This document shows positions 1 to 34,692 of a stretch of 34,694 nt of DNA, piece after piece. A program made the position numbers and the translations under genes. The notes beneath the pieces are model-generated. The model saw only the letters and a program-made list of their open reading frames with translations. It was not told the DNA's origin and ran no database searches. The DNA comes from Rufibacter ruber (GTDB lineage Bacteria; Bacteroidota; Bacteroidia; Cytophagales; Hymenobacteraceae): NCBI RefSeq assembly GCF_001647275.1, contig NZ_LRMM01000059.1, positions 1 to 34,694 on the forward strand, written 5' to 3'. Each line of letters opens with the position of its first letter. Positions within the stretch are counted from its first letter, which is position 1.

Positions 1-36
1 TTCGGGCTAGGTTTTCTAAAAACAGCCCCAAAACAG
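1..36. repeat. Dispersed palindrome, copy 1 (cut by window edge)
   Basis: The right arm AAAACAGCCCCAAAACAG is intact. The left arm is degenerate (GGGCTAGGTTTT in place of GGGGCTGTTTT) and runs off the window start. The copy belongs to the GGGG/CCCC subfamily, like the copy at 4087-4134. It lies directly downstream of the lpxB stop codon, so it could sit in the 3' end of that transcript. Confidence 0.65.
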
Positions 37-42
37 AAATCT

Positions 43-1167
43 TTAATTGCTCTTCTCCTCCTTTAGGTATTGCACCATCAGTTTGGCGGCTGTCTCAGAG
101 GTATTGAAGTCACCAATCAACTTGCGCACTTTGGCGTACCCTTTGAGTTGCGCGTCACGGCCGGCAGGGTTTTCCAATACATTCTTTAGTTCCTTGACCA
201 GGTTCTGCGCATTCAAATCGCTTTGAATGAGTTCTGGCACCACCCGCTCATTGGCAATCAGGTTTACCAGAGAAATATAAGGCACCTTGATCACCGCCTT
301 GCCTATCCAGTAAGAGATGTTGCTGGTACGGTAGCACACCACCTGTGGCACGTTAAACAGGGCTGTCTCTAGCGTGGCGGTGCCAGAGGTTACCAGGGCC
401 ACCTCTGCGTGTGCCAGCAGGTCATAGGTCTGGTCATAGACAATCTTGATGAACGGCTCACGGTTAAAGTGCTCGTAGTACTCTTTAGAAAAGTTGCTCA
501 CCGCGGCCACCACAAACTGGTAATCCTGGAACGGTGGCAGAATGCTCAGCATGATGTAGAGAATGTTCTCTATCTCCTGCTGGCGGCTTCCCGGCAGCAC
601 CGCAATGATAGGCCGGTCATCCAGCCCGTTTTCTTCCCTGAAATTCTTGTTCACCACGTGCGCTGACACAGAGTCAGACACAGGGTTGCCAATATAGTCT
701 GTCTGGTGGTAATCAAACTTCTGGTAGAAGTCTTTCTCAAAGGGCATGATGACAAACATGCGGTCTACCAGTTTCTTGATGGTATGCACGCGCCCCTGGT
801 TCCAGGCCCAGATTTTAGGCGAGATGTAATAGAAGACTTTCAGCCCGTTCGCCTTGGCGAATTTGGCAATGCGCATGTTAAACCCGGCATAGTCTACCAG
901 AATGACCACATCTGGCTGGTACTGCAGCAGGTCCTGCTGGCACTCCTTTAAAAAACGCTTGATTTTGAGCAGGTTGGTGGCCGCTTCCAGAAAGCCCATA
1001 AAGGCCATTTCCTGATAATGCTTCACCAGCTGAGCACCTGCCGCCTCCATCATGTCACCGCCCCAGCAGCGTATGTGCGCCTGCGGATCTTCCTGGTGCA
1101 ATTTCTTGATCAGGTTTGAGGCGTGCAAGTCTCCGGACCGTTCTCCGGCAATGATATAGTACTTCAT
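43..1167 (-). CDS. lpxB: Lipid A disaccharide synthase
   Basis: LpxB is a family GT19 glycosyltransferase. It joins UDP-2,3-diacylglucosamine and lipid X into the tetra-acyl disaccharide of lipid A, at the cytoplasmic face of the inner membrane. The product is 374 residues (E. coli LpxB is 382). Motifs seen are GERSGDLH at the N-terminus, YYISPKIWAWNQGR mid-protein, LPGSRQQEI, and the nucleotide-binding stretch TSGTATLETALFNVPQVV. I chose the ATG at 1167 (MKYYIIAGE); the frame is open to a GTG at 1188, but the family begins with this short beta strand. The gene stands alone here, 167 bases past queD and without the surE neighbour often seen in Bacteroidota. No TAnnTTTG box was found upstream, so it may be read from the btuF promoter. 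Confidence 0.95.
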   Translation of the reverse strand: MKYYIIAGERSGDLHASNLIKKLHQEDPQAHIRCWGGDMMEAAGAQLVKHYQEMAFMGFLEAATNLLKIKRFLKECQQDLLQYQPDVVILVDYAGFNMRIAKFAKANGLKVFYYISPKIWAWNQGRVHTIKKLVDRMFVIMPFEKDFYQKFDYHQTDYIGNPVSDSVSAHVVNKNFREENGLDDRPIIAVLPGSRQQEIENILYIMLSILPPFQDYQFVVAAVSNFSKEYYEHFNREPFIKIVYDQTYDLLAHAEVALVTSGTATLETALFNVPQVVCYRTSNISYWIGKAVIKVPYISLVNLIANERVVPELIQSDLNAQNLVKELKNVLENPAGRDAQLKGYAKVRKLIGDFNTSETAAKLMVQYLKEEKSN

Positions 1168-1334
1168 CAGAAAATAGCAGCCTGCCACCAGGCTTCTTTT
1201 TTAGTTATGGGTGAGCAGTTCAACGTGTGGCAGGTTTGGTGTTCCTGCCCGGTTGGGCAAAAGTGTCAGTCTTCAAGCGTGTAAGCCTTCTGTACTCCTC
1301 CAACTTCTACTCCAAATCCCCTTTCACCACGGGC

Positions 1335-1751
1335 TTACTCCCCAAAATACTCCACAAAATTGCGGGGCGTCTCGTAAAGTTTCAGGCTGTGCAGTTGCGC
1401 ATTTGATATACGGGGAATCTGGGGGTTTAGGATGTTCCAGAACTCCATCACCAGATTCTCAGTGCTTGCCAGCTTGCCTTCCATGAACGGCACGTCCAGG
1501 TTCAGATTCTTATGGTCTACCTTCTCAATGATGTGCTCCCTAATGAGAAGGCTCAGTTTTTTCAGGTCTATCACAAAACCGGTTTCCGGGTCAGGCTTTC
1601 CCTTTACCGTTACTATCAGTTCATAATTGTGCCCATGCCAGTTGGTATTGGCGCACGGGCCAAATACCTCCTTGTTCTTGGCCATAGACCAATTGGGGTT
1701 GTGCAGCTTGTGTGCTGCGTTAAAATGCTCTAACCGGCTTACGTATACCAT
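1335..1751 (-). CDS. queD: 6-pyruvoyl-tetrahydropterin synthase / 6-carboxytetrahydropterin synthase family
   Basis: This is a 138-residue T-fold enzyme that acts on dihydroneopterin triphosphate. Zinc ligands are visible as H14 (NAAHKL) and H39/H41 (HGHNY), and the catalytic cysteine as C33 in FGPCANTN. DHKNLN and the C-terminal ETPRNFVEY match the family. Bacterial members usually make 6-carboxytetrahydropterin for queuosine (QueD). The spacing and the TGFVIDL and DHKNLNLDVPF segments also look much like animal PTPS, so a biopterin-type product is possible. The ATG overlaps the permease stop codon by one base (TAATG), so it is translationally coupled to the ABC transporter genes. No other queuosine gene is in the window. 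The family assignment is firm; the exact product is inference. Confidence 0.88.
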   Translation of the reverse strand: MVYVSRLEHFNAAHKLHNPNWSMAKNKEVFGPCANTNWHGHNYELIVTVKGKPDPETGFVIDLKKLSLLIREHIIEKVDHKNLNLDVPFMEGKLASTENLVMEFWNILNPQIPRISNAQLHSLKLYETPRNFVEYFGE

Positions 1752-2758
1752 TAATTGAATCGGTAATTCTTTCTACGCAGCAAATATACGAAGAAAGGCA
1801 CACCAAAGAACGAAGTCACAATGCCCACCGGTAAACCGGCTGGCGGGTACAGCAGCCGCGAGATCAAATCACACACTACCAGAAACAGGCCGCCCCCTAA
1901 CGCGCAGGCCACCAGGTTCAACCGGCTGGTGGTGCCCAGCAGGGCCCGTATTACATGCGGCACCATGAGCCCCACAAACCCCACAGGGCCGGAAAAAGCC
2001 ACCGCAAAGCCTGTCACCACAGACACCGTCACCAGCATCACCCATCTGATCCTGCGCACATCCAGCCCCAGCGTCTCTGCCCTCTCGGTGCCCAGCAGCA
2101 ATACATTAAGGTGGCGCTGCAGAAAAAAGAACAGCACAAGGGAGAGCACCAGCGCCGTGGCCGGGTATCCCAGGTTGGTCCAATCTGCCTTCTCAAACCC
2201 GCCCATGCTCCAGAACACCACAGATTTTAGCTGGCTCTCAGACTCAGACAGGAACATGATCAGGCTCACCAGCGCCACCAGCAGCGAACTCAAGGCAATG
2301 CCCACCAACAGCATCTGGCTGGGAACCAGCTGCCCACGCCGCGACCCCAGCACCACCACCACCAGCGTTACCCCAAAGGAGCCCAGCAGCGCAAAAAATG
2401 GGGGCATGTACAACCCCAGAAAAGTTAGATCTGCAAACAGGTAAAAACTGATGGAAGCCCCCAGTGATGCCCCAGACGCTGTTCCCAGCAAATAGGGGTC
2501 GGCCAGGGCATTGTTCACCAGCGCCTGCATGAGGTAACCCGCAAACGCCAGGGAGGCTCCCGTTAGAAACGCTAACAGCAGGCGCGGCAACCGCAGGTGT
2601 ATGATGCTGTAATGCGCCGCATCACTGGCCTCATATGAAACAAACGCCTCCAGAATGGTGCTGAACGGCGTGTTAATGCTCCCAACCCGCAGGCTCAGGA
2701 AAAACCCCAGGGTCAGCAACAGCAGCAAACACAGAAATACCCAGGCTGTTTTTCTCAC
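1751..2758 (-). CDS. FecCD/BtuC-type ABC transporter permease
   Basis: This is a 335-residue inner-membrane permease of the iron-siderophore/heme/cobalamin importer family. It starts with a TM helix (VFLCLLLLLTLGFFLSL) and shows about nine or ten hydrophobic segments. The ATPase-contact region GPVGFVGLMVPHVIRALLG is near residue 250, and AGLPVGIVTSFFGVPFF lies near the C-terminus, as in BtuC and FecD. The start is GTG at 2758, in a GTGA overlap with the stop of the upstream binding-protein gene, so the two are coupled. No ATP-binding subunit gene lies nearby; the ATPase must be encoded elsewhere or shared. Substrate is not resolvable between cobalamin, heme and siderophore. Confidence 0.92.
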   Translation of the reverse strand: MRKTAWVFLCLLLLLTLGFFLSLRVGSINTPFSTILEAFVSYEASDAAHYSIIHLRLPRLLLAFLTGASLAFAGYLMQALVNNALADPYLLGTASGASLGASISFYLFADLTFLGLYMPPFFALLGSFGVTLVVVVLGSRRGQLVPSQMLLVGIALSSLLVALVSLIMFLSESESQLKSVVFWSMGGFEKADWTNLGYPATALVLSLVLFFFLQRHLNVLLLGTERAETLGLDVRRIRWVMLVTVSVVTGFAVAFSGPVGFVGLMVPHVIRALLGTTSRLNLVACALGGGLFLVVCDLISRLLYPPAGLPVGIVTSFFGVPFFVYLLRRKNYRFN

Positions 2759-3675
2759 GGCAGCACCTTTTTTAGTTCCTCAATACTTTGCACCACCCGT
2801 GGGCTGGGGCGGGCCAGCAGGTCATCGGTTACCTCAAAAATGCGTTTGTTCTTATAGGCGTTAATGCGCCTAAGCTCTGGGTACAGCGAGAAAAATGTCT
2901 TCTCATAATGGTCAAAGCTGCCCCCAATGATCACATCTGGGTTCATTTTCAGGATATATTCCCGGGTAAGCGCCGGAAAAGCCTGCGCAAATTTTTCCTC
3001 TACGGCATTTCTGGCTCCGGCAAAGGAAAGTTTGTCTGTCAAAATAGTATTGCGGCCATACACGTAAATAGGGTCCCGCCATGTAATAGCCAATACGCGG
3101 GGCTTAGGGGCCCGGCCTGAATCTGCCGCCAGCGCCTTCAGCCGTAGCTGCAGCGAGTCTGCCACTGCGTTTGCCTGCTGCTCCCGCTGCAGCAACCGCC
3201 CCAAGTCCCGTATGCCGCGCAGCACATCTGCCACACTGTCATACGCCTGGTAATAGATAGGAATGTGGAGCTTCTCCACCTGCGCCGCCACCTCTGCTGA
3301 GATGATTCCTTCAGTGGCGAACACCACCTGGGGTTTCAGGGCCAGCAGCCGCTCATAGTCCATGGGGTAATTGTTGAGGACCGGCTTGGCCAGGGCGGCA
3401 GCCGGATAGTCACAGTTCTGGGTTCGGGCAATGATAGTCCCGGTATCAGCCACGGCAAACAGCATTTCAGTCATAGACGGTGCCAACCCCAGAATACGGG
3501 TCGGTTTTACCGGTAGCGTCACCTTACGGCCCAAATCATCTGTCACCGTGTGCAGGGTGGCGTCAGCAGACGTAGCAGGGCCTTGCGTTTTAGATTCACA
3601 GGCGAAAAACAACGCCAGACACAACGCATACAACGGCAGGCTTTTCTTCGCCTTATAGATAATCTGATACTTCAC
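2755..3675 (-). CDS. Helical-backbone ABC substrate-binding lipoprotein (BtuF/FepB-like)
   Basis: This is a 306-residue cluster A binding protein (periplasmic binding protein class III). The N-terminus is a lipoprotein signal with the predicted acylated cysteine in LFFACESK. The mature part shows RILGLAPSMTEMLFAV, ARTQNCDYP and YERLLALKPQVVFAT, which is the BtuF-like pattern (compare TDYCDYP and LALKPDLV). The C-terminal lobe contains NPDVIIGGSFDHY and RPSPRVVQSIEEL. The start is GTG at 3675; there is no ATG before residue 70 in this frame, and the signal peptide begins correctly here. It is the first gene of the btuF-btuC-queD operon, with a consensus -7 box 29-36 bases upstream. The leader is too short for a cobalamin riboswitch and no B12 box was seen, so B12 is not favoured over iron or heme by regulation. 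Confidence 0.88.
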   Translation of the reverse strand: MKYQIIYKAKKSLPLYALCLALFFACESKTQGPATSADATLHTVTDDLGRKVTLPVKPTRILGLAPSMTEMLFAVADTGTIIARTQNCDYPAAALAKPVLNNYPMDYERLLALKPQVVFATEGIISAEVAAQVEKLHIPIYYQAYDSVADVLRGIRDLGRLLQREQQANAVADSLQLRLKALAADSGRAPKPRVLAITWRDPIYVYGRNTILTDKLSFAGARNAVEEKFAQAFPALTREYILKMNPDVIIGGSFDHYEKTFFSLYPELRRINAYKNKRIFEVTDDLLARPSPRVVQSIEELKKVLP

Positions 3676-4086: not shown

Positions 4087-4134
4087 ATTCCTGTTTTGGG
4101 GCTGTTTTTCAGAAAACAGCCCCAAAACAGGAAT
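4087..4134. repeat. Dispersed palindrome, copy 2 (perfect, GGGG/CCCC type)
   Basis: Arms of 22 bases (4087-4108 and 4113-4134) are perfectly complementary around the loop TCAG. The core arm is CTGTTTTGGGGCTGTTTT. This is the best-preserved member of the family in the window. It lies about 50 bases upstream of the hldD -7 box. Confidence 0.9.
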
Positions 4135-5196: not shown

Positions 5197-5236
5197 CAGC
5201 TGCGCGCCTACCCATAGTAGGCGCGCAGCTGTTTTA
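5197..5236 (+). terminator. Rho-independent terminator of hldD
   Basis: A perfect 15-bp stem (CAGCTGCGCGCCTAC at 5197-5211, complement at 5217-5231) with loop CCATA is followed by TTTTAG. The last four stem bases and the T-run are also the left end of palindrome copy 3, so the T tract appears to be supplied by the repeat. Confidence 0.9.
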
Positions 5237-5269
5237 GGGCTGTTTTTGTAAAAACAGCCCTAAAACGGC
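5228..5269. repeat. Dispersed palindrome, copy 3 (AGGG/CCCT type)
   Basis: The left arm 5228-5247 (GCTGTTTTAGGGCTGTTTTT) pairs with 5250-5269. The only non-Watson-Crick pair is a G-T, which would be G-U in RNA. The stem centre is AGGG/CCCT, so both arms differ from copy 2 in a compensated way. It overlaps the hldD terminator by four bases. Confidence 0.88.
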
Positions 5270-5339
5270 AATGTGTTTGGAGAAGGCAAAGCTGGCGGTA
5301 GCTGCTCGTATAACTACTGATTTTTCTTCTGCCCCGGTA

Positions 5340-6214: not shown

Positions 6215-6251
6215 TTCATTAAGAATTGGGAATAAAAAATTGAAAATTGGT

Positions 6252-6292
6252 TTCTGTTTTTGGCCTGTTTTCAAGAAAACAGCACAACAGAA
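6252..6292. repeat. Dispersed palindrome, copy 4 (decayed right arm)
   Basis: The left arm CTGTTTTTGGCCTGTTTT at 6254-6271 is intact. The right arm has shrunk to GAAAACAGCACAACAG, about three bases shorter than expected. This is the GGCC type and lies downstream of the FRG gene stop codon. Confidence 0.7.
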
Positions 6293-6314
6293 GGAAGCAT
6301 GCGGTTAGGGAAAA

Positions 6315-6376
6315 CTAATTCCTAATTCCTAATTCCTAATTCCTAATTCCTAATTCCTAATTCCTAATTCCTAATT
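6315..6376. repeat. Heptamer tandem repeat (CTAATTC, about 8.9 copies)
   Basis: Eight exact CTAATTC units are followed by a partial CTAATT. The array ends inside the TAA stop codon (6375-6377) of the minus-strand outer-membrane gene. Read on that gene's strand the unit is GAATTAG. Because seven is not a multiple of three, TAG falls in all three frames. No sequence variation between units is seen, which suggests recent slippage. Confidence 0.95.
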
Positions 6377-9300
6377 AAAAAAGCACTGATACCTGCATTC
6401 TGCCGGTGTGAATGGTTCTGACGCCTTGGGGTTTGCGGCCGTCATAGTCCAGGGTGATGTTGAGGCCGTTGGTGAGGCGCTGCTGTACGGCCAGGTTCCA
6501 GGTGAGGTTGTTGCCGGGCTGGAAACCGTTGAGCATCTCAAACGCCACCGGTGAGTTAATCTGGCCGGTATAGTTAATTTTGATGTATTTCACCACGCCG
6601 GCCACTGTACGCTTGCCTACCTGGCTGAGCCGCACCTCACTGCCGAACTCATGAAACCGGGCCTCCTCCTGCGCCCCCTGCTCGTTTTCCTTGTCCATCC
6701 ACTGGTAGGTGCCGGTGAACCGGATCTTTGTGTTGGGTTGGTAAGACAGCTCAGGCGTGGCCTCCCAGGACCTGATCAGGAAATTTTTGGTGGTCAGGTA
6801 ATTAGAGGAGCTCTCCCGCTTAAAGCGGGTCACGTTGAGTCGGCTGGAAAAAACCTCCGTCAGGTTAACCCTGAACAGCATTTGCTGGCTGCTGTTGAGG
6901 CGTACATCTGTGCCGTTGGTGAGCAGGATTTTCTGCAGGCTCTGCTGCACCGTCCACTCCACCCCGTATTTGGGGTTGCTCCGGTTAAAGTATAATGTAT
7001 TGCGGTAAGAGCGGGTCAGCGAGAGCAGCGATGTATCAGCAAAATTGAGGCTGAACGGGTTGAAGCGGCTGCGCAGGTCATCATCTGTGGTGCGTTTGTC
7101 TATGGCCACAAAAGAGAGGGCAGAGAATTTGGAGGCCATGCGCTTTACCCAGCTTTCTGCGCGCTGCCACTGCCGGGGCAAACTGCTGTTGAGCCGGTAG
7201 GTGAAATTGTTGGTGTAGGCCAGCACATACTCATCTGTGGGAATGAACAACCGCACATAATTTCGCCGGTACGGCGGATCTGTGGGTTGGGCCTCAAAGA
7301 ACTCATTCAGGTCCTGCTGCCCATCCTGGTTCAGGTCTTCAAAATAATGAGTTCCCTGCCCCGGCACCGTTTCCACAAACTGGTATTCGCGCTTCAGCTC
7401 CCTACCGGTGCCAATGGCGTAGCTTAACTCTGAGCGCAGGTTACGGTCAAAGAAGTCTCCCACCCAGTCAATTTTAGAAAGCACGCTGGTTTCTGGCAGG
7501 CTGTCACGGGCCTGCACATTTCTGAAGGTGAGCAGCGCGTTGATCTGGTGGTTGTTCCTGACAATGGTACTGGCGCTGAAGTTGTAGGTGTTGGCCATCT
7601 GCTTGTTGCCCAGCTCCCCGTTCTCTGGCCGCCAATCTACCCGGCGACTGTATTCGGCCCTGAATTTTACCTTTGCCGTATCTGCGCTCTGCAGAAAAAA
7701 CAGGTGGTCATCAAAATAGTTGGCAGAGGCAACCAGCTGTTCATTCAGTTTAGACGTGACCCGGTTTTTATCAAAGCGGTACACGTAGCCGGGGGTGAAA
7801 AAGCGGGTAGGGTACTGCACGCCTATCTCTCCGCGCACCCATTCAGCCTTGGTATCAACCAGCTCATTGTTCATGAGAAACAGGTTGGTTCTGAGTTCCA
7901 GCCTTTTCACGGTCTGCCCTAGTTCCAACAGATGCTGGGTGCCATCTACCTCACTGGGCCGGTAGCGGCGGTTGAGCTTGTAGTTCAGATAATTTCTGGC
8001 ATCCCGCACGCCCCCCACTGAGAAAGAGAGAATATGGTCTTCAATTCTGGACTGCCGGGCTGAGGTGGTGTTGGTGGGGCTGTTCCAGTCACGGTCAAAC
8101 TCAATGTCACGGTAGCGGTCTATGGGCGCGAAGTTAGGATCTGTGTATTCATACGCCAGCGCACTCTGCAGTTTGTACGGCCCCAGAAATTTTATAGTGC
8201 GGTCACCTACCTGATAGCCCACTCTGAGGGCTTTGCCCTGGTCATCTTCAGAATCCTGTTTTGAGAAGCGGTTCAGATCATTCCTGGAACCCGCTACTTC
8301 CAGAAAAACTTCTGCTTTGGGGTCTACAGACCAGATCCCGCCCAGGGTCATCATCTGCTTCTGAATGGGCGTGGGCAGAATACGCACCGGATCATACCGC
8401 CCCTGCGGCACCCCGTTCACCGGCTCCACCCATTGGTACACGCGTCCGTTCACGGTAGTGTTCAGCAGGTTGTAATTGCCCTGCCCAGCCCCTACCTCAG
8501 TAAAACTAACGGCATACAGAGTTACCGTTGAATCTGTGGTGTACTCATAGATGTTGAAACTGCCACTAGCCGTCTGCACCTCTTTTAGCTGGTAGAGCAC
8601 CTGGTTACGGCTGTATTTCACCTGCTCTGCCCCAGAGGAGACCGCCTGCTGCAGGTCATCTCCAATTTGAGTGAGCAGCCGCTTCTGGTCATTGTTCAGG
8701 TTCAGCAGCAGCGGGCTGTTCTGGTTGTCTGCCTCATTGTAGAAGTTACCGTACACCTTGAACCTGCCCATGTTCTGGTAATGGTTGGCGTGCAGCACGG
8801 TGCGGGTGTAATTCTGGTCTGAATATTCAAAATCAACCCTGATGCGGGAGTTGCGCGTGATGATCCACTTTGGGGTAAAGGTAATCTCAGCCTGGTTGTA
8901 GTCAATTACATAGTCATAGTCAAAGCCGCGCGTGAGCAGTTTCCCGTCCAGGTAAACCCGTTCTGAGTTGGCCAGGACAATGATAAACCGTTCCCCGTTG
9001 GGCCCGCGCAGACGGTACGGCCCCTGCACACTTTCAAGCGGCGTGATGATCTCTGAGGCGAATTTCCCCTTGGCCACTGACGCCGCCACCGCCGTAGAGC
9101 TCTCCCAACCCTTCTTGCCCCTGTTCACCTCCAGGGCCCCTCCCTGTACGTTTTTGTAAAACCTTAGGAAATGGGACACCGGCCGGTTCTTCAGGACCAC
9201 ATCACCGCCGGTCAACGTCCAGAGCCGGTGCTGCAGCGTGATGAAAACCCGGTCAAACTCCTGTAGCTGCTGGGTATTGCCTTCGGGCTGAAAGGGAATG

Positions 9301-9935
9301 TTCTGGTCAGTGATAGAGGCGGTGATGTCAATCTCCTCAGTCAGTTTGCCTTCCAGCTGCAGGTTCAGGGCAGAATTCACAAATACGTTCTGCGTGTTCC
9401 CCACTGATACGCCGCGGGAGATACTACCCGTTTTGTTCAGACCCGGTGTTTTGAACAGCTCCTCCCGGGCCGCCTGCGGCTCAAACACATTCTGCCGCTC
9501 AAACTCTGCTGAATCCAGCAGTCTGACGTCCCGTTTAAATTTTACCGCCGCCAGGTTCACCGGCAGCACCCGGTAGCAAACCAACACAGAGTCTGTTTTT
9601 GACCTGTTTTCAGGAAAACGGGCCAAAAACGCCCCTTCTCCCCGGGCAATAAGCGAATCTGGGAAAAGCCTGGGGGTGACGGCAGGCGGGGGCAGATGCA
9701 TGAACTGGAACAGGCCGGAGGTCGGGTCATAGAGAAAGGACATAGGCCGGAGCACCTGCCGGTTGTCAAAGATTTGCACGCTTTCTTCAGCAATAGTCAA
9801 GGAGTCCAGCTGAAAGGCCCCCTCCTGCAGCAGTACCCACTTGCACCGCTGGTTAGAAAGTGTCTGCCCTTGCGTGGAGGAAGCTACTGCCAGGCTTAGC
9901 AGCAGCAACAGCACAATGCCCCACCCGTACCTCAT
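6375..9935 (-). CDS. Large predicted outer-membrane beta-barrel protein (unnamed family)
   Basis: This is a 1186-residue protein with a clear Sec signal (WGIVLLLLLSLAVASSTQGQ, residues 5-24). A poorly conserved N-terminal domain precedes a striking conserved block at about 170-270 (SRGVSVGNTQNVFVNSALN, ASITDQNIPFQPEGNTQQLQ, TGGDVVLKN). I associate that block with large Bacteroidota outer-membrane proteins, including part of SprA; this is recollection, not a search. From about residue 270 the sequence alternates polar and aromatic residues in beta-strand fashion to the very end. It finishes ...MQVSVLF with a terminal phenylalanine, as outer-membrane barrels do. A DLNQDGQQDLNEF stretch (about residue 870) resembles a calcium-binding loop. 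The ATG overlaps the kinase stop (ATGA), so the two are coupled. Residues 102-115 are encoded by a palindromic repeat. Function unknown. Confidence 0.8.
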   Translation of the reverse strand: MRYGWGIVLLLLLSLAVASSTQGQTLSNQRCKWVLLQEGAFQLDSLTIAEESVQIFDNRQVLRPMSFLYDPTSGLFQFMHLPPPAVTPRLFPDSLIARGEGAFLARFPENRSKTDSVLVCYRVLPVNLAAVKFKRDVRLLDSAEFERQNVFEPQAAREELFKTPGLNKTGSISRGVSVGNTQNVFVNSALNLQLEGKLTEEIDITASITDQNIPFQPEGNTQQLQEFDRVFITLQHRLWTLTGGDVVLKNRPVSHFLRFYKNVQGGALEVNRGKKGWESSTAVAASVAKGKFASEIITPLESVQGPYRLRGPNGERFIIVLANSERVYLDGKLLTRGFDYDYVIDYNQAEITFTPKWIITRNSRIRVDFEYSDQNYTRTVLHANHYQNMGRFKVYGNFYNEADNQNSPLLLNLNNDQKRLLTQIGDDLQQAVSSGAEQVKYSRNQVLYQLKEVQTASGSFNIYEYTTDSTVTLYAVSFTEVGAGQGNYNLLNTTVNGRVYQWVEPVNGVPQGRYDPVRILPTPIQKQMMTLGGIWSVDPKAEVFLEVAGSRNDLNRFSKQDSEDDQGKALRVGYQVGDRTIKFLGPYKLQSALAYEYTDPNFAPIDRYRDIEFDRDWNSPTNTTSARQSRIEDHILSFSVGGVRDARNYLNYKLNRRYRPSEVDGTQHLLELGQTVKRLELRTNLFLMNNELVDTKAEWVRGEIGVQYPTRFFTPGYVYRFDKNRVTSKLNEQLVASANYFDDHLFFLQSADTAKVKFRAEYSRRVDWRPENGELGNKQMANTYNFSASTIVRNNHQINALLTFRNVQARDSLPETSVLSKIDWVGDFFDRNLRSELSYAIGTGRELKREYQFVETVPGQGTHYFEDLNQDGQQDLNEFFEAQPTDPPYRRNYVRLFIPTDEYVLAYTNNFTYRLNSSLPRQWQRAESWVKRMASKFSALSFVAIDKRTTDDDLRSRFNPFSLNFADTSLLSLTRSYRNTLYFNRSNPKYGVEWTVQQSLQKILLTNGTDVRLNSSQQMLFRVNLTEVFSSRLNVTRFKRESSSNYLTTKNFLIRSWEATPELSYQPNTKIRFTGTYQWMDKENEQGAQEEARFHEFGSEVRLSQVGKRTVAGVVKYIKINYTGQINSPVAFEMLNGFQPGNNLTWNLAVQQRLTNGLNITLDYDGRKPQGVRTIHTGRMQVSVLF
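9593..9631. repeat. Dispersed palindrome, copy 5, inside the outer-membrane gene
   Basis: CTGTTTTTGACCTGTTTTC at 9593-9611 faces GAAAACGGGCCAAAAAC at 9614-9630. It is read in frame on the minus strand as AFLARFPENRSKTD (residues 102-115). The core has GACC where intergenic copies have GGCC. The same change occurs in the other coding copy at 12671. Confidence 0.8.
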
Positions 9936-13666: not shown

Positions 13667-13711
13667 AATGCTCAGAAGTCACCCGCAAAACAGAATTAAG
13701 CTGCAGCAGCT

Positions 13712-13753
13712 TTCTGTTTTTGGCCTGTTTTTAAGAAAACAGGCCAAAAACGC
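13712..13753. repeat. Dispersed palindrome, copy 7 (GGCC type)
   Basis: CTGTTTTTGGCCTGTTTT at 13714-13731 pairs with AAAACAGGCCAAAAAC at 13736-13751 around TAAG. It is the only strong hairpin between the end of the respiratory gene run (13810) and the histidine kinase start (13666). It may therefore act as a terminator or processing site, though no separate T-run follows. Confidence 0.85.
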
Positions 13754-13809
13754 AAATCAGGAAAAGCTCTGCGCAAGCCCTGGTGTGACCGTTACATTTA
13801 AACGAAGGC

Positions 13810-19416: not shown

Positions 19417-19419
19417 TCG

Positions 19420-21249: not shown

Positions 21250-21272
21250 ACAATACTGTTAAGAGATTATAA

Positions 21273-22325: not shown

Positions 22326-22349
22326 TATCTGTATCTTTTAAAATGAGTC

Positions 22350-23627: not shown

Positions 23628-23647
23628 TTCAAAAATACCTTTTACGG

Positions 23648-24361: not shown

Positions 24362-24885
24362 TATTTAACTACCTCCTTCTCGTTTACTTCGATTGCCCCG
24401 TTTGAACGGAGAAGATCATTGAGTTTATTAATATCTGTTCCTTCTTTCAACTCAATGGCCATTACGTATTTGTCATCAGTTGACCGAACATCCATCACTG
24501 GCACTTTCAACGTTGGGCGGAGACCACTAATCACAAAGAATGTGATCACCATACCAAACGCCGCACAAAGTACAGTTAATTCAAAGGTAACCGGAATGAA
24601 GGCAGGAAGGGCTACGTGCGGCTTACCACCAATTATCATTGGCCAGTCAAAGCCCAGCATGTAGATCTGCATCCAAAGGGCGAAAGAGGTACCACACAAG
24701 CCGCACAAGAAGGCCACAATAGGCAGTCTTGACCGCTGAATCCCTAACACATCATCAATGCCGTGTATAGGATAGGGCGAGAATACATCATAGATTCTGG
24801 TGCCTGCCGCGCGTGTTTTCTCAATGGCGTTCAGCAGCACATCCTCGTCATCAAATACTCCGAGTATATATTTCTTACTAGTCAT
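24361..24885 (-). CDS. actD: Alternative complex III subunit D (DUF3341)
   Basis: This 174-residue membrane subunit has a cytoplasmic N-terminal domain ([20 protein letters not shown] and [13 protein letters not shown], the DUF3341 signature). Two TM helices follow ([19 protein letters not shown] and [20 protein letters not shown]), then a soluble C-terminus. I chose the ATG at 24885 ([10 protein letters not shown]) because it matches the family start. It overlaps the actC stop as ATGACTAG, an 8-base overlap. The frame continues nine codons upstream. ActD packs against ActC and ActF. Confidence 0.93.
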
Positions 24886-26296
24886 GTTTGTGGGTGTTAG
24901 GAGCTGTGCCATGCATAGATGCGTCAGGGTTGTGGGTGTGGTTTACCCCTCTAGACGACTTCAAAATAGATTTCACCTCTGCCATGTTCACCACTGGGAA
25001 GAATTTGGCAAACAGGAGGAATAAAGTAAAGAACAAGCCCATGGTTCCTACATAGACGCCTATGTCAATACTCGTTGGGGAGAACATTACCCAGCTGGAT
25101 GGCAGGAAGTCACGGTGCAGAGACGTTACAATGATCACGAAACGCTCAAACCACATACCAATGTTCACAAAGATGGAGATGATAAAGGTGGCGGTAAGGC
25201 TTCTGCGGATTGATCTGAACCAGAAAAGCTGAGGCGTAATTACGTTACAAGTCATCATAGACCAGTATGCCCACCAGTATGGGCCTGTAGCCCGGTTGAT
25301 AAATGCATATTGCTCATACTCCACCCCTGAATACCAGGCGATAAAGAATTCTGTGATATAAGCCACCCCTACAATTGATCCTGTTAAGGTGATTACCTTG
25401 TTCATAGACTCAACGTGCTCCAGGGTAATATAATCTTCCAGTTTGAAAGTCTTGCGGGTAATGATCATCAAGGTCAATACCATGGCAAACCCTGAGAAGA
25501 TAGCTCCAGCCACAAAGTATGGAGGGAAGATGGTGGTGTGCCAACCAGGAATTACCGAAGTGGCAAAGTCCATTGATACAATGGTGTGCACTGAAAGTAC
25601 CAGTGGCGTTGCCAAGCCGGCCAAGATCAATGACACTGTCTCATAACGAGACCAGTGTTTGGCAGATCCTGTCCAGTTCATGCTTAACAAAGCATACGCT
25701 CTGCGGGCAATTGGACCGGTAGCTCTGTCTCTGATGGTTGCAAAGTCTGGGATCAAACCTATGTACCAGAAAACCAGTGACACTGAGAAATAGGTACTGA
25801 TGGCAAACACGTCCCAAAGAAGTGGGGAGTTAAAGTTCACCCACAGGGAGCCAAATGTGTTTGGAAGAGGCAATACCCAGTACGCCAACCAAGGTCGGCC
25901 CATGTGTAAAACAGGGAACATGGCCGCACAGATTACCGCAAAAATGGTCATCGCCTCAGCGGCGCGGTTAATAGAGGTTCTCCATTTCTGACGGAACAAA
26001 AGCAAGATGGCCGAAATCAGAGTACCGGCGTGGCCAATACCTACCCACCATACGAAGTTGGTGATATCCCAAGCCCAACCTACTGTTTTGTTGAGTCCCC
26101 ATTCCCCAATCCCAAACCACAAGGTACGGTATACAGAGTAAATAAAGATTCCAAGAAATACCAAAGAAACCCCCAGGGCCACCATCCAACGGACGTTCGG
26201 CTTGGCTTCCACCTGCCGACAAACGTCCTCCGTGATGTCTGCATAAGTTTTCCCTCCGGTTACTAAGGGTTCTCTTATCGGAGATACGTGCTGCAT
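24878..26296 (-). CDS. actC: Alternative complex III subunit C (NrfD/PsrC family, quinol-binding)
   Basis: This 472-residue integral membrane protein has about ten TM helices. Family landmarks include [53 protein letters not shown] and [22 protein letters not shown]. ActC provides the quinol oxidation site near the iron-sulfur domain of ActB. Electrons then pass to the hemes of ActA and ActE. It begins 18 bases after actB and overlaps actD. The product is a paralogue of ActF, as in all ACIII complexes. Confidence 0.95.
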
Positions 26297-26314
26297 ATAT
26301 CTTTCTGTGTTAAA

Positions 26315-29300
26315 TTAAGCTTGGTTTCTGATTTTGGTTAAGTAAGTCACGTTTGGCTGAGTGTTCAACTCTTCCAACACGTGGAACGCACGCTCCCCTT
26401 CTTCACGCTTCAGGATTTGTGATACCTGGCTGTTAGGATCCAGCATATCTCCAAAGATGATGGCGTTGGTTGGGCAAGCCTGGGCACAAGCAGTAACTAT
26501 CTCACCATCTTTAGGACGACGGGCTTCTTTCTTGGCCTCTAACTTACCTGCCTGTATACGCTGTACGCAGAACGAGCATTTCTCCATTACACCACGCGAA
26601 CGAACGGTAACATCTGGGTTTAACACCATCTTACCTAGGTCGTTGTTCATGTTGTAGTCAAACTTCTCATTGTTCGCATAGTTGAACCAGTTGAAGCGAC
26701 GTACTTTATATGGGCAGTTGTTTGCGCAGTAACGGGTACCCACACAGCGGTTGTACACCATTTGGTTGATACCCTCAGTGCTGTGCATAGTTGCAGCCAC
26801 CGGACAAACCGTCTCGCACGGAGCATGGTTACAGTGCTGGCATAGCATTGGTTGGAACACCACTGCAGGATTAGCAGACGGGTCTTCCATTTTCTCAAAC
26901 CCACCGTCTTCACGGGTAGCATCACTGCTATAATAGCGGTCAATACGCAGCCAGTGCATTTCACGGCGGTTCAATACTTCCTGCTTACCTACTACAGGTA
27001 TGTTGTTCTCTACCTGGCAGCTTACTGTACAAGAACCACAACCAATACAGGAGTTCAGGTCAATGACCATACCCCAGTGGTGGTTCTTATATTCGTAATC
27101 TTGCCAAAGAGATACTTTCTGCGGCTTTTGAGGTCCGTCTGGCGTAGCAATTTTAATATACTCTGTTACGCTCTTAGGATCTTGCTTGTACTTGCCTAAG
27201 GTTGACTCCTGAACCACATTACGGCCCATTACCGTGTGGTGGGTCTGGGTTTGGGCAATAGGCTTATCAGTACCCGCCTTTTCAATAGTGACAGTATTGG
27301 TATACTGTAACGCATTGTCAGAAACGGTTACCAACGGGTACACATTAGCGCCAACATTGTTAGCAGCCTGTCCGCCATGGGTACGGCCATATCCAACGGC
27401 AATACCAACAGTCCCCACTGCTTGGCCGGGCTGGATCAAGGCAGGCAATTCAATGGTTTTACCTTTTGCAGTTACCCGCAGCACATCATTTTGTTCAATG
27501 TCCTGTGCTTTGGCATCTGCCTGGGAGATGGTAACGTAATTATCCCAAACTGCTTTGGTGGTGGGGTCAGACATTTCCTGCAACCATGGGTTGTTGGTAT
27601 GCTGGCCAGTTCCAATAGCTACCTTCTCGTAAATTTCAAGCTCAAAGGCACCTTTACCGGCTGCCGCGCGGGCAGCTTTGTTAATGCCTACCGCGGCACC
27701 CGCCAAGGTGACAGGAGCAACAGCGGCTGTTGGCTCGTTCAAACCGGTAGTTCCTTGCGCAACACCATCATGAACGGCTTTATCCCATCCGGCGGCGCTT
27801 CCCACTACACCTGACCAGGTTCTCTGAATCACATTGTAGTAGTCTGTGGTAGAGCCGGCCCATACCAACAGGGATTGCTGGGCCTGTCTGGTGTTATAAA
27901 TTGGCGTGATAGCTGGCTGAGCCAAGCTCAAGAAACCTCTTTTGGGCTCGTAGTCATTCCAGGACTCCAGGAAATGGCTGTCTGGGCAGATATAGTCAGC
28001 TAAGGAAGCGGTCTCATCAGCTCTGTCAGCAAAGGAGATCTTCACGCCCACCTTCTTCAGCCCGCTTACAATCTGCTGGCTTAACGGGTGATCATAAACA
28101 GGGTTGGCACCATAGAAGATCACAGCCCCTACACCGCCGTTGTTCATGTCCTGAACAAGACGAAGCATACGGGCATCATCTCCCTGACGCACATAAGAAG
28201 GGGCAGCGGTATTGATAGTGCTACCTTCTGCGCCTAATGCTCTGTTTATACCGGCCACTAACGCTTGAACAGACGCATCATTAGAGTCAGATACCACTAA
28301 GGCAGCGCCACGGTTAGCCAACAATTCTTTGGCAGCCGCTTCTACCTGTTTCGCATAGGCGTTATTTGGAGCAGTGATTGCCTCTGCACCGGCACCTCTG
28401 GCTACTGCATTGTATAAGGCAGCTACCACCGCCCCATACTCAGAGGGCTTCACCGGTACCCGCACGTCGGCGTTGGCCCCGGTTAAGCTCAAGAAGCTCT
28501 CAAACTGGATGTGACGAGACATGGTAGGGTTCTCAGCCGTCACTTTCCGGTTAATGATATATTGTTTTGAATACTCTACCGGAGAGATCCAGGATCCTAA
28601 GAAGTCAGCGCCAACAGAAACAATGACTTTGGCTTTGCTGAAATCGTACCCAGGTACCAGACCACCGTTAGCACGTAACAAGCCATAAGCAGACTTTGGA
28701 TCATAGGTTACGTGTTCAAACGAAGGAAACTGGGCTCCAAACTCCCTGATCACCGTTTTGGTACTCGGGCTGATGATGGTGTTTGACACCAACACCACTT
28801 TCCCCTGTACGCCGGTGAGGCGGGTTCTGATTTTTTGGTCAACCTCTTTCCAGGAAACCTCCTTGCCGCCAGCCATTGGGCCTTTCAGTCTGGACTGGTC
28901 ATAAAGTCCCAGCAAAGAAGCCTGTGACCGGGCGTGCGTACCGCCCTGGGTGATGGGAGAAAGCGGGTTCCCCTCAATTTTGATTGGACGCCCTTCTCTT
29001 GTTTTCACCAACACGGGGTTGTAGAAATCCCCCATAAAGTAAGTAGAGGCATACCAGTTGGCTACACCCGGCTCTACTTCTTCTGGTTTATGCAGGTAAG
29101 GGATCGCTTTACGAACCGGGGCCTCACAAGAGGCTAGCGTAACCGCTGCCATCCCAAAACCCAACAGTTTTAAGAAATCACGTCTTGGAGCTACAGGAGA
29201 GGAAGAATCATCTCCGTTGGCTTCACTTACTGGCAGGAACTCAGGAAACTCGTTATGAGCATGCTGCTGGAATTCCGGAGTGTTGTTTAACTCCTCTACC

Positions 29301-29329
29301 CCTCTCCAGTATTTAATTGTTTCTTGCAT
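26315..29329 (-). CDS. actB: Alternative complex III subunit B (molybdopterin-like plus iron-sulfur protein)
   Basis: This is a 1004-residue peripheral periplasmic subunit. A twin-arginine motif (RRDFLKLLGFG, RR at 49-50) and a lipobox cysteine (LASC, C68) indicate Tat export and lipid anchoring. The long middle part is a catalytically empty molybdopterin-oxidoreductase fold. The C-terminal part is ferredoxin-like, with cysteine clusters CIGCGSCTVSC, CQHCNHAPCETVC, CVGTRYCANNC, CSFCVQRI and CAQACPTN, enough for several FeS centres. The start is ATG 29329 (MQETIKYW); the frame is open to a TTG nine bases upstream, which I do not favour. It lies 36 bases after actA. Confidence 0.95.
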   Translation of the reverse strand: MQETIKYWRGVEELNNTPEFQQHAHNEFPEFLPVSEANGDDSSSPVAPRRDFLKLLGFGMAAVTLASCEAPVRKAIPYLHKPEEVEPGVANWYASTYFMGDFYNPVLVKTREGRPIKIEGNPLSPITQGGTHARSQASLLGLYDQSRLKGPMAGGKEVSWKEVDQKIRTRLTGVQGKVVLVSNTIISPSTKTVIREFGAQFPSFEHVTYDPKSAYGLLRANGGLVPGYDFSKAKVIVSVGADFLGSWISPVEYSKQYIINRKVTAENPTMSRHIQFESFLSLTGANADVRVPVKPSEYGAVVAALYNAVARGAGAEAITAPNNAYAKQVEAAAKELLANRGAALVVSDSNDASVQALVAGINRALGAEGSTINTAAPSYVRQGDDARMLRLVQDMNNGGVGAVIFYGANPVYDHPLSQQIVSGLKKVGVKISFADRADETASLADYICPDSHFLESWNDYEPKRGFLSLAQPAITPIYNTRQAQQSLLVWAGSTTDYYNVIQRTWSGVVGSAAGWDKAVHDGVAQGTTGLNEPTAAVAPVTLAGAAVGINKAARAAAGKGAFELEIYEKVAIGTGQHTNNPWLQEMSDPTTKAVWDNYVTISQADAKAQDIEQNDVLRVTAKGKTIELPALIQPGQAVGTVGIAVGYGRTHGGQAANNVGANVYPLVTVSDNALQYTNTVTIEKAGTDKPIAQTQTHHTVMGRNVVQESTLGKYKQDPKSVTEYIKIATPDGPQKPQKVSLWQDYEYKNHHWGMVIDLNSCIGCGSCTVSCQVENNIPVVGKQEVLNRREMHWLRIDRYYSSDATREDGGFEKMEDPSANPAVVFQPMLCQHCNHAPCETVCPVAATMHSTEGINQMVYNRCVGTRYCANNCPYKVRRFNWFNYANNEKFDYNMNNDLGKMVLNPDVTVRSRGVMEKCSFCVQRIQAGKLEAKKEARRPKDGEIVTACAQACPTNAIIFGDMLDPNSQVSQILKREEGERAFHVLEELNTQPNVTYLTKIRNQA

Positions 29330-29365
29330 ATATCTCAAAAACTCAAATTCAGGATATGGAATTGA

Positions 29366-30682
29366 TTAGTAGTGGCACTTAGAACATTCAGTACCACCGT
29401 TAGACGCCACAATGAAAGCGCCTTTTGACTGCTTCTCATGCAACTTCACCAAGTTGTCATAATAAGCGTTTCCTTCTGTGTTCAGAGGAGTGTTGCGGTG
29501 ACAGTCAATACACCAGCCCATGGTCAATGGCGAGTACTGGGCTACCACTTCCATGGTCTCAATAGGACCGTGGCACGTCTGGCACTCCACCCCACCCACT
29601 TTAGTGTGCTGAGAGTGGTTGAAGTAAGCCAACTCAGGCAGGTTGTGTACCCGTACCCACTCAATAGGCTTGTTATTTTCAATAGCGCGGTAGATTTTCT
29701 GAATCTCTGGAGACTCCTTCTTGATCTGGCTATGGCAGTTCATACAGATGTTTGCCGAAGGAATGTTTGCTTTCTCGCTCTTGTAAACCGAGGTGTGGCA
29801 GTAGTTACAGTTGATCTGGTGATCACCGGCGTGCAGTTTATGGGAGAAAGCTATAGGTTGTCTGGGAGCGTACCCTTGCTGAATACCCACTCCCATTACT
29901 TTATCAATGGAGATATCCACCAACACTACTATAAAGATCAGACCCACAATCACCCGTACCGCTTTTGACTTGTAGATATTGGCAAAGTTGGTGCGGCGCT
30001 CCAGCATTTCCTGCTCAGCACCCGTAAGGTCTGTTTTGTTCTTCAGGTAGTTCTTCAGAACTGAGGCAATGATCAGCAACGTGATCACTAGTACAATCAG
30101 CACCACTACCAGCACTATTAAGAGCATGTCTACGTAGCCGCCTACCGCATCAGGAGCGTTAGTGCCAACCTGAGCGCCAGCTTCAGCACCCGGCACGCCA
30201 CTTGGCGCCATGTCAGTGGCCGCACTCTCACTTTCCTGCTTAATGTAAGCAATGATGGCGTTCAGCTCATCATCAGAGAAGGCGAAAGAAGGCATCTGCT
30301 GCTTAGCATATTCATTGTAAACGGCTACCGCATCTTTGTCGCCGCTTTGAATGAGAGCACTTGAGTTCTTGATCCATTTCTGCAGCCAAGACTGTGATCT
30401 TCTCTTGTGCACATCCTTCAGACCAGGACCTACTACAACTTCTGCGGTTACAGCGTGACACTGCGCACAGTTATTCTTGAAAAGGGTACTCCCGGCATCA
30501 ATTACAGCCGCATCAGCACCACCACCGCCCCCGGCAGCCGGAGCCGCCTCAGCAGAACCTGGCGTTACACCCGCAGTACCTACCTGTGCCGTTTCCTGCG
30601 CAAAAGCACTGGAAACCACAAAGAAGATAAAGATAAAAGGGAGTAGGAAGGTAGATTTTGCTCTCTTTTTACAGCTAATCAT
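29366..30682 (-). CDS. actA: Alternative complex III subunit A, six-heme cytochrome c
   Basis: This 438-residue protein has a Sec signal (FLLPFIFIFFVVSSAFA). A low-complexity alanine/glycine linker leads to a monoheme cytochrome domain with CAQCH at 72-76. A strong TM helix (about 186-212) and a second (about 243-261) follow. The C-terminal multiheme part has five CxxCH motifs: CNYCH, CMNCH, CQTCH, CIDCH and CSKCH. Six heme sites result, one more than the pentaheme core. In Bacteroidota ACIII the extra monoheme domain is thought to pass electrons to the aa3 oxidase in a supercomplex. That fits the lack of a cytochrome domain on subunit II here. It is the first gene of the respiratory run, just downstream of a near-consensus promoter. 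Confidence 0.95.
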   Translation of the reverse strand: MISCKKRAKSTFLLPFIFIFFVVSSAFAQETAQVGTAGVTPGSAEAAPAAGGGGGADAAVIDAGSTLFKNNCAQCHAVTAEVVVGPGLKDVHKRRSQSWLQKWIKNSSALIQSGDKDAVAVYNEYAKQQMPSFAFSDDELNAIIAYIKQESESAATDMAPSGVPGAEAGAQVGTNAPDAVGGYVDMLLIVLVVVLIVLVITLLIIASVLKNYLKNKTDLTGAEQEMLERRTNFANIYKSKAVRVIVGLIFIVVLVDISIDKVMGVGIQQGYAPRQPIAFSHKLHAGDHQINCNYCHTSVYKSEKANIPSANICMNCHSQIKKESPEIQKIYRAIENNKPIEWVRVHNLPELAYFNHSQHTKVGGVECQTCHGPIETMEVVAQYSPLTMGWCIDCHRNTPLNTEGNAYYDNLVKLHEKQSKGAFIVASNGGTECSKCHY

Positions 30683-30756: not shown

Positions 30757-31096
30757 CACAATATTTCTTCTTTTTCCCTCAGTAATAACACGTACTAAAG
30801 CCCTCATAAACAGGCTTCAAATCATGCTGCAGGGCTCTTTTTACCCTATTTAGAATTCTTATAAATTACTGTCATTTTGCTCGCAAACACCCCGTTTCAG
30901 CCCCCTTTTTACGTTCTCCCACCTGTCTTTCCTGCAGCTGCCCCGCTTATGCCCCCTCAGGCCCCCTCCCTAGGCCTCTGGCCACTCCTATTATATTAAG
31001 GTGCAACGCAAGGCGATGATAACACCTTTCTTCACCCATGACCTGTATCATTTTATATCTGCTTAGCCCCAGTTGGAAACTTCTCTGATTGTCTGG

Positions 31097-31142
31097 TTTC
31101 TGTTTTTGGCCTGCTTTTCTAAAAACAGGCCAAAAACAGAAA
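31097..31142. repeat. Dispersed palindrome, copy 8 (GGCC type)
   Basis: Arms of 22 bases (31097-31118 and 31121-31142) pair with a single C/A mismatch. The core is CTGTTTTTGGCCTGcTTTT. The copy lies in the 750-base divergent spacer between actA and rpsF. Apart from this repeat, the two promoters and the hairpins at 31281-31341, I see nothing else in that spacer. Confidence 0.88.
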
Positions 31143-31280
31143 ACGGGCTTCTTCATTCAGGTGCCAACCCATCATACTCAATATTAAATAGGGAATCCCC
31201 TTCCCTGCTTCTGGCCTGTGCCACCCCTGTTGCGCATCTTATACCCCAAACCACTAGCCTCACATCAGGGCCAGTCTTTA

Positions 31281-32570: not shown

Positions 32571-32597
32571 AGCCGGTTCTAGCAGGGCCCTTAAAAG

Positions 32598-32635
32598 CTG
32601 TTTTCGCTGTTTTGCCCAAAACAGGCCGAAAACAG
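32598..32635. repeat. Dispersed palindrome, copy 9 (left arm two bases shorter)
   Basis: CTGTTTTCGCTGTTTTG faces CAAAACAGGCCGAAAACAG. The outer segment CTGTTTTCG/CGAAAACAG and the inner CTGTTTTG/CAAAACAG pair, with GC unpaired in the right arm. The C/G at the stem centre differs from other copies but is compensated. It lies between the rplI terminator and the HAD gene. Confidence 0.78.
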
Positions 32636-32693
32636 AAACTTCGCCGGCTTCTCACCTGATCAGCCACCCACCAGACCCCATTATCCTACTGCC

Positions 32694-34407: not shown

Positions 34408-34412
34408 ACTTC

Positions 34413-34452
34413 CTGTTTTTGGCCAGTTCCAGAAAAAGTAAGCCGAAAACGC
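34413..34452. repeat. Dispersed palindrome, copy 10 (degenerate)
   Basis: CTGTTTTTGGCCAGTTCC is recognisable as the left arm. The right arm GTAAGCCGAAAACGC is much decayed. It lies six bases after the GSCFA stop codon. Confidence 0.55.
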
Positions 34453-34475
34453 ATTCTAAGGATTATTGAGGTTTC

Positions 34476-34518
34476 AAGGAATTCTGAATTTAAAGGAATT
34501 CTGTAGTTAAGGAATTCT
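34476..34518. repeat. Three near-regular copies of AAGGAATTCT
   Basis: The decamer occurs at 34476-34485, 34493-34502 and 34509-34518, with repeat periods of 17 and 16 bases. It directly precedes the large inverted repeat. It may be a degenerating tandem repeat or a binding-site array. Confidence 0.7.
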
Positions 34519-34519
34519 C

Positions 34520-34596
34520 ATGGCGCAAGCGTCCGCTTGTGCCTGCACGGATTTTGGTCTGCAATACCTATAGGCACAAGCGGACGCTTGCGCCAT
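34520..34596. repeat. REP-like perfect 25-bp inverted repeat
   Basis: The arms at 34520-34544 and 34572-34596 are exactly complementary, with a 27-base loop. Each arm is itself palindromic around GCAAGCG-TC-CGCTTGTGC, so the arms could fold alone or together, as in bacterial interspersed mosaic elements built from two REP units. No RAYT/TnpA-REP transposase gene is in the window. Confidence 0.88.
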
Positions 34597-34651
34597 AAGA
34601 AAACATGAGAAGTCAAAAGAATCAAGGAATACTTAGTTAGCCAACCAATTT

Positions 34652-34692
34652 CTGTTTTCGCTGTTCGCAATTGGCCAAAACAGAACGAACAG
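34652..34692. repeat. Dispersed palindrome, copy 11 (rearranged)
   Basis: CTGTTTT (34652-34658) pairs with AAAACAG (34677-34683), and CTGTTCG (34661-34667) pairs with CGAACAG (34686-34692). The order of units is altered compared with other copies. It reaches almost to the window end. Confidence 0.55.

Follow-up and report, generated by a model that had tools for sequence, protein, structure and literature searches.

The stretch of Rufibacter ruber DNA described here, 34,694 nucleotides of contig NZ_LRMM01000059.1 and referred to below as the window, carries eleven copies of a palindrome of about 40 bp. The genome that holds the window (G000) is 5.5 Mb in size. The relatives compared with it are 15 further Rufibacter genomes (the genus as in the genome taxonomy used), labelled G003, G004, G012 and so on, among which G003/G014 and G006/G013 are pairs of sister species. 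The usual explanation of interspersed palindromes in bacteria is that they are remnants of mobile elements or RNA hairpins. The family in the window is a kind of small interspersed palindromes, and its unusual part is the combination of fixed sites with dialects, that is, with spellings that differ between species. To judge from the sequences compared, the palindromes resemble common sites that are respelled jointly more than they resemble a hopping element.

A first-pass annotation of the window had pointed out the eleven palindromes. All of them match the covariance model of the family, nine with best E-values of 1e-16 to 5e-7 (the copies at 4087, 5228, 6252, 9593, 12671, 13712, 31097, 32598 and 1) and two more weakly (E 1.4e-4 at 34413 and 8e-4 at 34652). 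The model was built on an alignment of nine copies from contig C1 with six from the window; the other five window copies are an independent confirmation, because they were absent from it. Two extra weak matches, at 31275 (E 0.33) and 31851 (E 0.68), are not counted as copies. The 22-nt arms are 100% matched at 4087 and 95% matched at 31097. The annotation had noted that no transposase gene is present, and none was found among the 17 window proteins scanned with Pfam (the remaining open reading frames, ORFs, lay outside the scan). Rfam gave no match above the gathering score in the window.

The copies, to which no strand is assigned, are as follows; E is the covariance-model E-value, and fractions count the species with an element in the orthologous region.

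1-41: copy clipped by the window edge, directly past the stop of an LpxB-like gene (43-1188, minus strand); E 5e-7 / 2e-6
4087-4134: copy with perfect 22-nt arms, in the divergent gap between a periplasmic-binding-protein gene (minus strand) and an epimerase gene (plus strand); 14/15 species
5226-5273: copy in a tandem gap, with the epimerase gene on one side and the FRG-domain gene on the other; 12/15 species
6249-6295: copy in a convergent gap, matched by the covariance model; 11/15 species
9590-9637: copy within an ORF of 1186 aa (6375-9935, minus strand), in frame and encoding GAFLARFPENRSKTD; 12/15 species
12666-12715: copy within a histidine-kinase ORF (9932-13666, minus strand), in frame; 14/15 species
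13709-13758: copy upstream of the kinase gene, ahead of the next gene in the same direction; 11/14 species
31095-31144: copy upstream of the alternative complex III / cytochrome oxidase cluster, in a divergent gap, matched by the covariance model
32593-32640: copy with the left arm 2 bases short, between two plus-strand ORFs, matched by the covariance model
34408-34457: weaker copy, right after a plus-strand ORF that ends at 34407; E 1.4e-4
34647-34688: weak copy close to the window end; E 8e-4 / 1.6e-3

Extent and architecture of the family

The 18-nt arm pattern CTGTTTTNGGNCTGTTTT, with at most 2 mismatches, is found 1,626 and 1,609 times on the two strands of the R. ruber genome, compared with 6 and 1 matches for the control, the same pattern reversed. 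A count of two-arm elements over 425 kb of the R. ruber genome (C1, 140 kb of C112 and the window) gave 197, against 0 in the control. Both results are far above chance and in keeping with the dense family of the annotation. With 1 mismatch the arm pattern has 30-898 matches in each of the 15 relatives and 0-4 in 43 genomes outside the genus (controls 0-3). The covariance-model search of relatives that the annotation had proposed gave matches in all 16 Rufibacter genomes and in 1 of 28 others (G022, 2 matches); the survey scored 138 candidates per genome, and its match counts are not copy numbers. Among the matches listed to the strict 40-nt form in named genomes, at least 16 stretches, 15 are from Rufibacter and 1 is from Sabulibacter. 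Viral contigs contained no exact match of the strict form and plasmids no match to a 62-nt query. By eye, the inverted repeats from samples of 7 outgroup genomes resemble, for the most part, ordinary terminators, and they share no family. Among the genomes searched, the palindrome family of the window is limited to the genus Rufibacter. No description of it was found in the searchable literature, beyond whose reach most subscription journals lie, which agrees with the annotation's impression that it is undescribed.

The arm pattern has few matches in some relatives (14 + 16 in G012, 34 + 20 in G008). A low copy number there was considered and rejected: species-specific models give a normal density, and the matches are few because the spelling differs, not the copy number. 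These models find 3.5-9 elements per 10 kb in each of the 16 genomes; their training sequence was also the sequence scored, and the false rate that they tolerate is about 5%. The range is 3.8-5.9 in the nine genomes sampled over at least 120 kb each; the other seven were sampled over 20 kb only. Extrapolated, the copy number is about 1,600-3,400 per genome.

The element is laid out as an arm of 18 nt, a loop of 4 nt and a second arm of 18 nt, with the 4-nt loop present in 210 of 227 R. ruber elements. The analyses of constraint, distance, near-identity, linkage, loops and sense-strand mismatches, as well as most of those of arm partners, were restricted to elements with such a loop. Nearly every strong plus-strand arm in R. 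ruber (96 of 97) has a partner with at most 5 mismatches; for random positions the share is below 2%. Complementary loop centres are avoided in R. ruber (25 vs 60), and no such avoidance is seen in G003, G005 and G008.

When sister species are aligned (alignments with a flank identity below 0.6, namely 4/53, 9/59, 11/52 and 10/53, were dropped), the four T/A tracts of the element are 93-95% identical, compared with 78-83% for the intergenic flanks and 73-78% for the remaining element positions. Alignment gaps are rare in the elements (about 1% of columns) and commoner in the flanks (8-11%). The spacing and the tracts are therefore constrained, since they are kept beyond the flanks, and the other positions change as fast as the flanks or faster.

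Paired changes that keep the arms matched exceed permutation in all eight species pairs compared and clearly so in seven; here, as in the distance analysis below, pairs with unequal loops or several candidates were dropped. There are 25 compensatory changes between G003 and G014, where 11.9 are expected (sd 3.5), and 33 between G006 and G013, where 17.2 are expected (sd 3.8); the excess is weak for G012/G006 (43 vs 35.9, sd 3.7). Arms are nearer to their own partner than to random arms in 9/9 genomes (z -2.0 to -6.2). Arm symmetry alone is no proof of a selected structure, because template switching between arms, reported in the accessible part of PMC8794818 as a mutational process that gives matched arms, can produce the same paired changes. 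The portions available of PMC8794818 and PMC8604942 describe multi-base paired changes and arm homogenisation by this process in RNA genes and yeast genes. Maintenance by template switching would explain the matched arms of the Rufibacter palindromes, but not their shared spelling or fixed positions.

The position of the elements relative to genes was determined with a simple custom gene caller, and some of the ORFs that host elements are probably false. Among the gaps of 60 bp or more in nine genomes, those with an element make up 141/164 of the convergent, 373/662 of the tandem and 110/178 of the divergent ones, so that occupancy is most regular in convergent gaps. Of 875 elements, 86 fall within predicted ORFs. 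Within tandem gaps the median distance is 54 bp to the upstream stop vs 123 bp to the next start; 42% of these elements are found within 40 bp of the stop and 13% within 40 bp of the start. No model match falls within the same-strand cluster at 14486-30682 of the window, and one copy lies upstream of it. From this placement we infer that the elements would mark transcription-unit boundaries. The cluster itself is made up of alternative complex III and cytochrome oxidase genes, the codon-usage scores of which, in the calls of the custom caller, are below those of their neighbours.

Fixed positions and changing spelling

At six window sites an element, defined by at most 9 mismatches of 32 specified letters, is present in 74 of 89 orthologous regions of 15 species; the control gives 0 of 89. 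In pairwise comparisons of five genomes, counts that are not independent of each other, a gap of at least 100 bp with an element has an element in the other genome in 394/477 cases, and a gap of that size without one in 70/278. Across eight species, 535 of the 581 elements with at least one anchored comparison have a counterpart, recognised by the species model, at the orthologous place of one or more other species, and with sister species excluded 390 of 441 are matched elsewhere. In two sister pairs, 38 elements were seemingly absent from the partner. When 35 of these were aligned and inspected by eye, about 28 clearly had a diverged element in place and the rest were unclear; none of the 35, from the two sister pairs, presented a clean empty site. 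A further 26 elements of the sister comparison lacked a two-sided anchor. The three unmatched elements that were aligned are all part of longer stretches that were inserted or rearranged. Of the 21 unmatched elements listed, many are weak matches in conserved coding sequence.

The annotation had read the palindromes as a family that spreads and then erodes, and had named copies at fixed orthologous positions as an observation that would speak against this. The reading as a family spreading now fails, because the copies occupy the same orthologous places across the genus. The palindromes would rather be old, vertically inherited sites at fixed places, which are not currently hopping. One local difference was seen at block position 129501 of G013, where about 500 bp lie between two elements and G006 has a single element; recombination between elements may have inserted or deleted the stretch.

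Two of the window copies lie in frame inside genes. At 9593, a segment like the one encoded in R. ruber is present in 16/16 Rufibacter orthologues and absent from 14/14 outgroup orthologues, which are shorter at this variable-length linker. The copy at 12671 is also in frame in 16/16 Rufibacter orthologues and adds no length relative to outgroups, so that the copy at 9593 alone is evidence of insertion. It lies in an ancient in-frame addition that predates the radiation of the genus. The insertion origin proposed in the annotation is thus borne out for the past by the 9593 addition and contradicted, as regards present spread, by the fixed positions.

The spelling at these places differs from species to species. 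The dialect is CCGTTTTcGGGCTCATTT in G012, CCGTTTAGGGGCTgTTTT in G004 and CGTTTTTGGCCTGTTTT in G006 and G013. The outer and inner parts of the arm change separately, with CCGTTTT outside and CTCATTT inside in G012 and CGTTTAGGGG outside in G004. Because they vary independently, the unit is the single 18-nt arm and not a doubled heptamer; the annotation's four CTGTTTT/AAAACAG units per element hold for R. ruber and not for the family. Among 100 G012 arms the inner dinucleotide is CA in 78, CG in 14 and GT in none, and GT is the commonest one in the four other genomes tabulated. The G004 set is mixed: the outer letters TTTA are found on both arms of 27 of 56 elements, on one arm of 25 and on neither arm of 4. 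An asymmetric subfamily in G004 was considered and was not clearly distinct.

Different sites within the G012 genome differ by 6.4-7.7 of 40 letters. Between G012 and three other species (17 to 21 pairs each) the distance is 12.7-14.4 of 40 letters for orthologous copies and 12.6-14.7 for non-orthologous ones (11.9-14.0 in the better orientation). In G012, therefore, orthology shows in position only, orthologous copies being as distant as unrelated ones. When G003, G004 and G005 are compared with each other, the orthologous distance is 12.7-14.3 vs a non-orthologous distance of 14.8-16.4, and in the sister pairs the values are 7.1 vs 10.9 and 8.3 vs 17.9. The spelling in G003/G014 is loose (16.6 of 40 letters within a genome); tracts, length and symmetry are kept. 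The annotation had described a range of copy quality from perfect 22-nt arms, which do occur at 4087, to decayed remnants. The poor copies need not be remnants, since many orthologous sites in the relatives show a looser or different spelling.

Alternative explanations of sites and dialects

In this family, short palindromes by the thousand stay where they are, and their spelling changes jointly in each lineage, even within a reading frame. Either outcome would be informative, a trans-acting factor that imposes the spelling or overwriting in place between copies, and the sixteen sequenced species with their differing dialects make the question testable. The explanation favoured here, tentatively, is that the palindromes are constrained DNA sites, probably recognised by a putative factor whose changes in specificity drag the sites along. 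The conserved tracts, the constant length and the obligatory pairing of the arms speak for it, together with the fixed places and the spelling common to the sites of a genome. The sites would first have been planted by insertion, as suggested by the one in-frame addition older than the genus radiation, and would mark transcription-unit boundaries. They would be read as double-stranded or extruded DNA by a putative factor specific for sequence and symmetry. The sites would follow any shift in its specificity, and template switching between the arms during replication would supply the paired changes. A more far-reaching version, which is somewhat doubtful, is a genus-wide address system of about two to three thousand sites per genome, fixed since the genus arose and read by one putative factor. 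Changes in its specificity would have rewritten most sites in the G012, G004 and G006/G013 lineages, including a coding site in G012. If true, the address system would parallel uptake-sequence dialects with palindromic sites that mark boundaries, a sort of site not described in the searchable literature.

Several observations weigh against the factor-read sites. At the six window sites, 15 of the 89 orthologous regions, about 1 in 6, are without a recognisable element. In G003/G014 the positions outside the tracts change more rapidly than the flanks do (73-74% vs 82-83% identity); with the loose spelling within these genomes, this leaves little sequence specificity there. An excess of G.T over A.C arm mismatches (244 vs 175 summed over G003, G014 and G004, the first two of which share sites) hints at RNA pairing in some lineages of the genus. 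The 4-nt loop follows the dialect too. In some genomes of tight spelling, pairs of copies with at most 2 differences are more frequent than under column permutation: 38 vs 1.4 in G000, 17 vs 0.1 in G004, 30 vs 4.8 in G012 and 15 vs 2.2 in G013. Near-identical copies without shared flanks also fit the copying of units, and the permutation ignores differences in site quality.

Some of these observations would be accounted for by rewriting in place, the main rival though an unlikely one, in which a self-copying element, rarely moving now, is overwritten by other copies and needs no host function. Gene conversion or hairpin exchange between dispersed copies would leave the positions and homogenise the spelling. 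Near-identical copies whose flanks are unrelated are in excess in G000, G004, G012 and G013 (not clearly so in G006, 4 vs 1.1, and in G005, 0 vs 0), which agrees with this, as does the association of loop letters with dialect. The variable positions within one arm are strongly linked; the linkage between the two arms is much weaker, so that whole units are not simply copied. Orthologous distances are overdispersed (G003/G014 mean 8.3, sd 4.7). Gaps next to locally unmatched genes, the conservation of flanking genes being judged within the sampled blocks only, carry an element in 9/13 cases in G004, G005 and G012 together and in 3/16 in G003 and G014, which favours rewriting weakly. Rewriting does not, however, predict that T/A tracts and length are kept beyond the flanks even where the spelling is loose, nor does it sit well with the retention of GT in 0 of 100 G012 arms; no enzyme is known for it. 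If the putative factor cuts or nicks its sites, the following of its specificity and copying in place may be one process.

It is quite improbable that the palindromes are RNA hairpins at the 3' ends of mRNAs, serving stability, processing or termination, and are conserved incidentally. The paired changes in the arms and the position of elements nearer to stops than to starts in tandem gaps would fit such hairpins, as would the lean to G.T over A.C in G003 (102:78), G014 (100:71) and G004 (42:26). The other six genomes have no such lean, and over all nine the sense-strand mismatches are 626 G.T vs 596 A.C (p 0.41), with 279 vs 244 (p 0.14) for 199 elements directly past a stop; a separate count on five genomes gave 226 and 233. 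Because there is no overall strand preference in the arm mismatches, the role would be mainly at the DNA level, and an RNA role in part of the genus may exist. The common loops, moreover, are about equally frequent in both sense-strand orientations, with small exceptions (CCAG 6:0 in G014, CAGA 1:5 in G004). Exact loop flips between sisters occur in 8 of 71 pairs for G006/G013, where unrelated pairs give 7.4, and in 0 of 63 for G003/G014, where they give 0.7.

Like intrinsic terminators, the palindromes form hairpins after genes; unlike them, they have no U-run, are two-sided and are found also within genes and in divergent gaps, 110 of 178 of which carry an element. A run of at least 5 T in 8 nt follows 7% of the 875 elements on the plus strand and 8% in the mirror image, and ordinary terminator-like hairpins adjoin the elements in several alignments inspected by eye. 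The terminators or operators that the annotation had offered as its alternative fit poorly for these reasons and because of the lineage-wide respelling.

A non-autonomous mobile element still spreading, of the repetitive extragenic palindrome (REP) or miniature inverted-repeat transposable element (MITE) type and moved by a REP-associated tyrosine transposase (RAYT) or an IS200-type transposase, has very little probability. The available part of PMC3733652 describes GTAG-tagged REPs as short high-copy palindromes found mainly between tandem and convergent genes and in part within genes. The Rufibacter palindromes are likewise short, high-copy, mostly intergenic and sometimes genic. Unlike this system they have no GTAG tag above background in eight species sets (12 of 454 ends vs 12.4 in G000; 4 vs 3.7 in G004), and their positions are fixed genus-wide. 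CGTC-tagged REPs and Rickettsia palindromic elements (RPE) have, according to the same partial source (PMC3733652), no dedicated transposase known, in-frame genic copies and stems of 8-9 bp. In-frame copies (9593, 12671) and the lack of a known dedicated transposase are shared with the Rufibacter family, the arms of which, in contrast, are 18 nt long. The CGTC tag is not above chance at their ends either: its count is at or below background in 6/8 species sets, the other two being G013 (5 vs 3.9) and G005 (2 vs 1.5). Dialects at fixed sites are not among the features of CGTC REPs and RPE described in that part of PMC3733652.

A mobile element would account for the in-frame segment added at 9593, and Y1 transposases are present in 15 of the 16 Rufibacter genomes. 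Of 31 Y1 loci, 26 have an element no farther than about 1.5 kb from the Y1 match, and 9 of these have elements on either side of it. This is no enrichment, because 48 elements in 31 loci of about 3.2 kb correspond to about 5 per 10 kb, the density found elsewhere in the genomes. The 99% complete genome of G006 gave no Y1_Tnp match at E 0.001, but its dialect is tight and 88 elements were found in 220 kb. The fixed positions across species largely refute mobility for recent times.

The DNA uptake sequence of the Neisseriaceae is a short non-palindromic word. That the palindromes are such a sequence, accumulated through a preference of the uptake machinery, is the least probable of the explanations: they share thousands of copies and dialects with the Neisseriaceae sequences, the dialects of which follow phylogeny (PMC3630211, accessible part), and restriction to one genus, fixed positions and in-frame copies inside genes would also fit, but the Rufibacter unit is an obligate 40-bp palindrome with matched arms, and single arms are almost never alone in R. 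ruber (96/97 paired).

A second palindrome and other repeats

A second palindrome, GCACAAGCGGACGCTTGCGCC, occurs twice in inverted orientation at 34515-34601 of the window. Its distribution is patchy: with at most 2 mismatches it has 49 matches in G000, 68 in G007, 41 in G009, 33 in G021, which belongs to another genus, and at most 11 in each of the other 31 genomes. It flanks two of the 31 Y1-transposase loci, L032 and L241, and may for this reason be the REP of the two Y1 genes there; a general pairing of RAYT-like genes with it was rejected, as it was seen at 2/31 loci. Around the RAYT-like gene of L032 three composites are visible by eye, at about 603-705, 1960-2060 and 2335-2425, each made up of a CTGTTTT palindrome, a similar spacer of about 35 nt and then a CGGACG palindrome; L241 may match this arrangement.

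Another repeat of the window is an array of 8.9 copies of CTAATTC at 6315-6376. Stretches similar to this array match at other places in several Rufibacter genomes.

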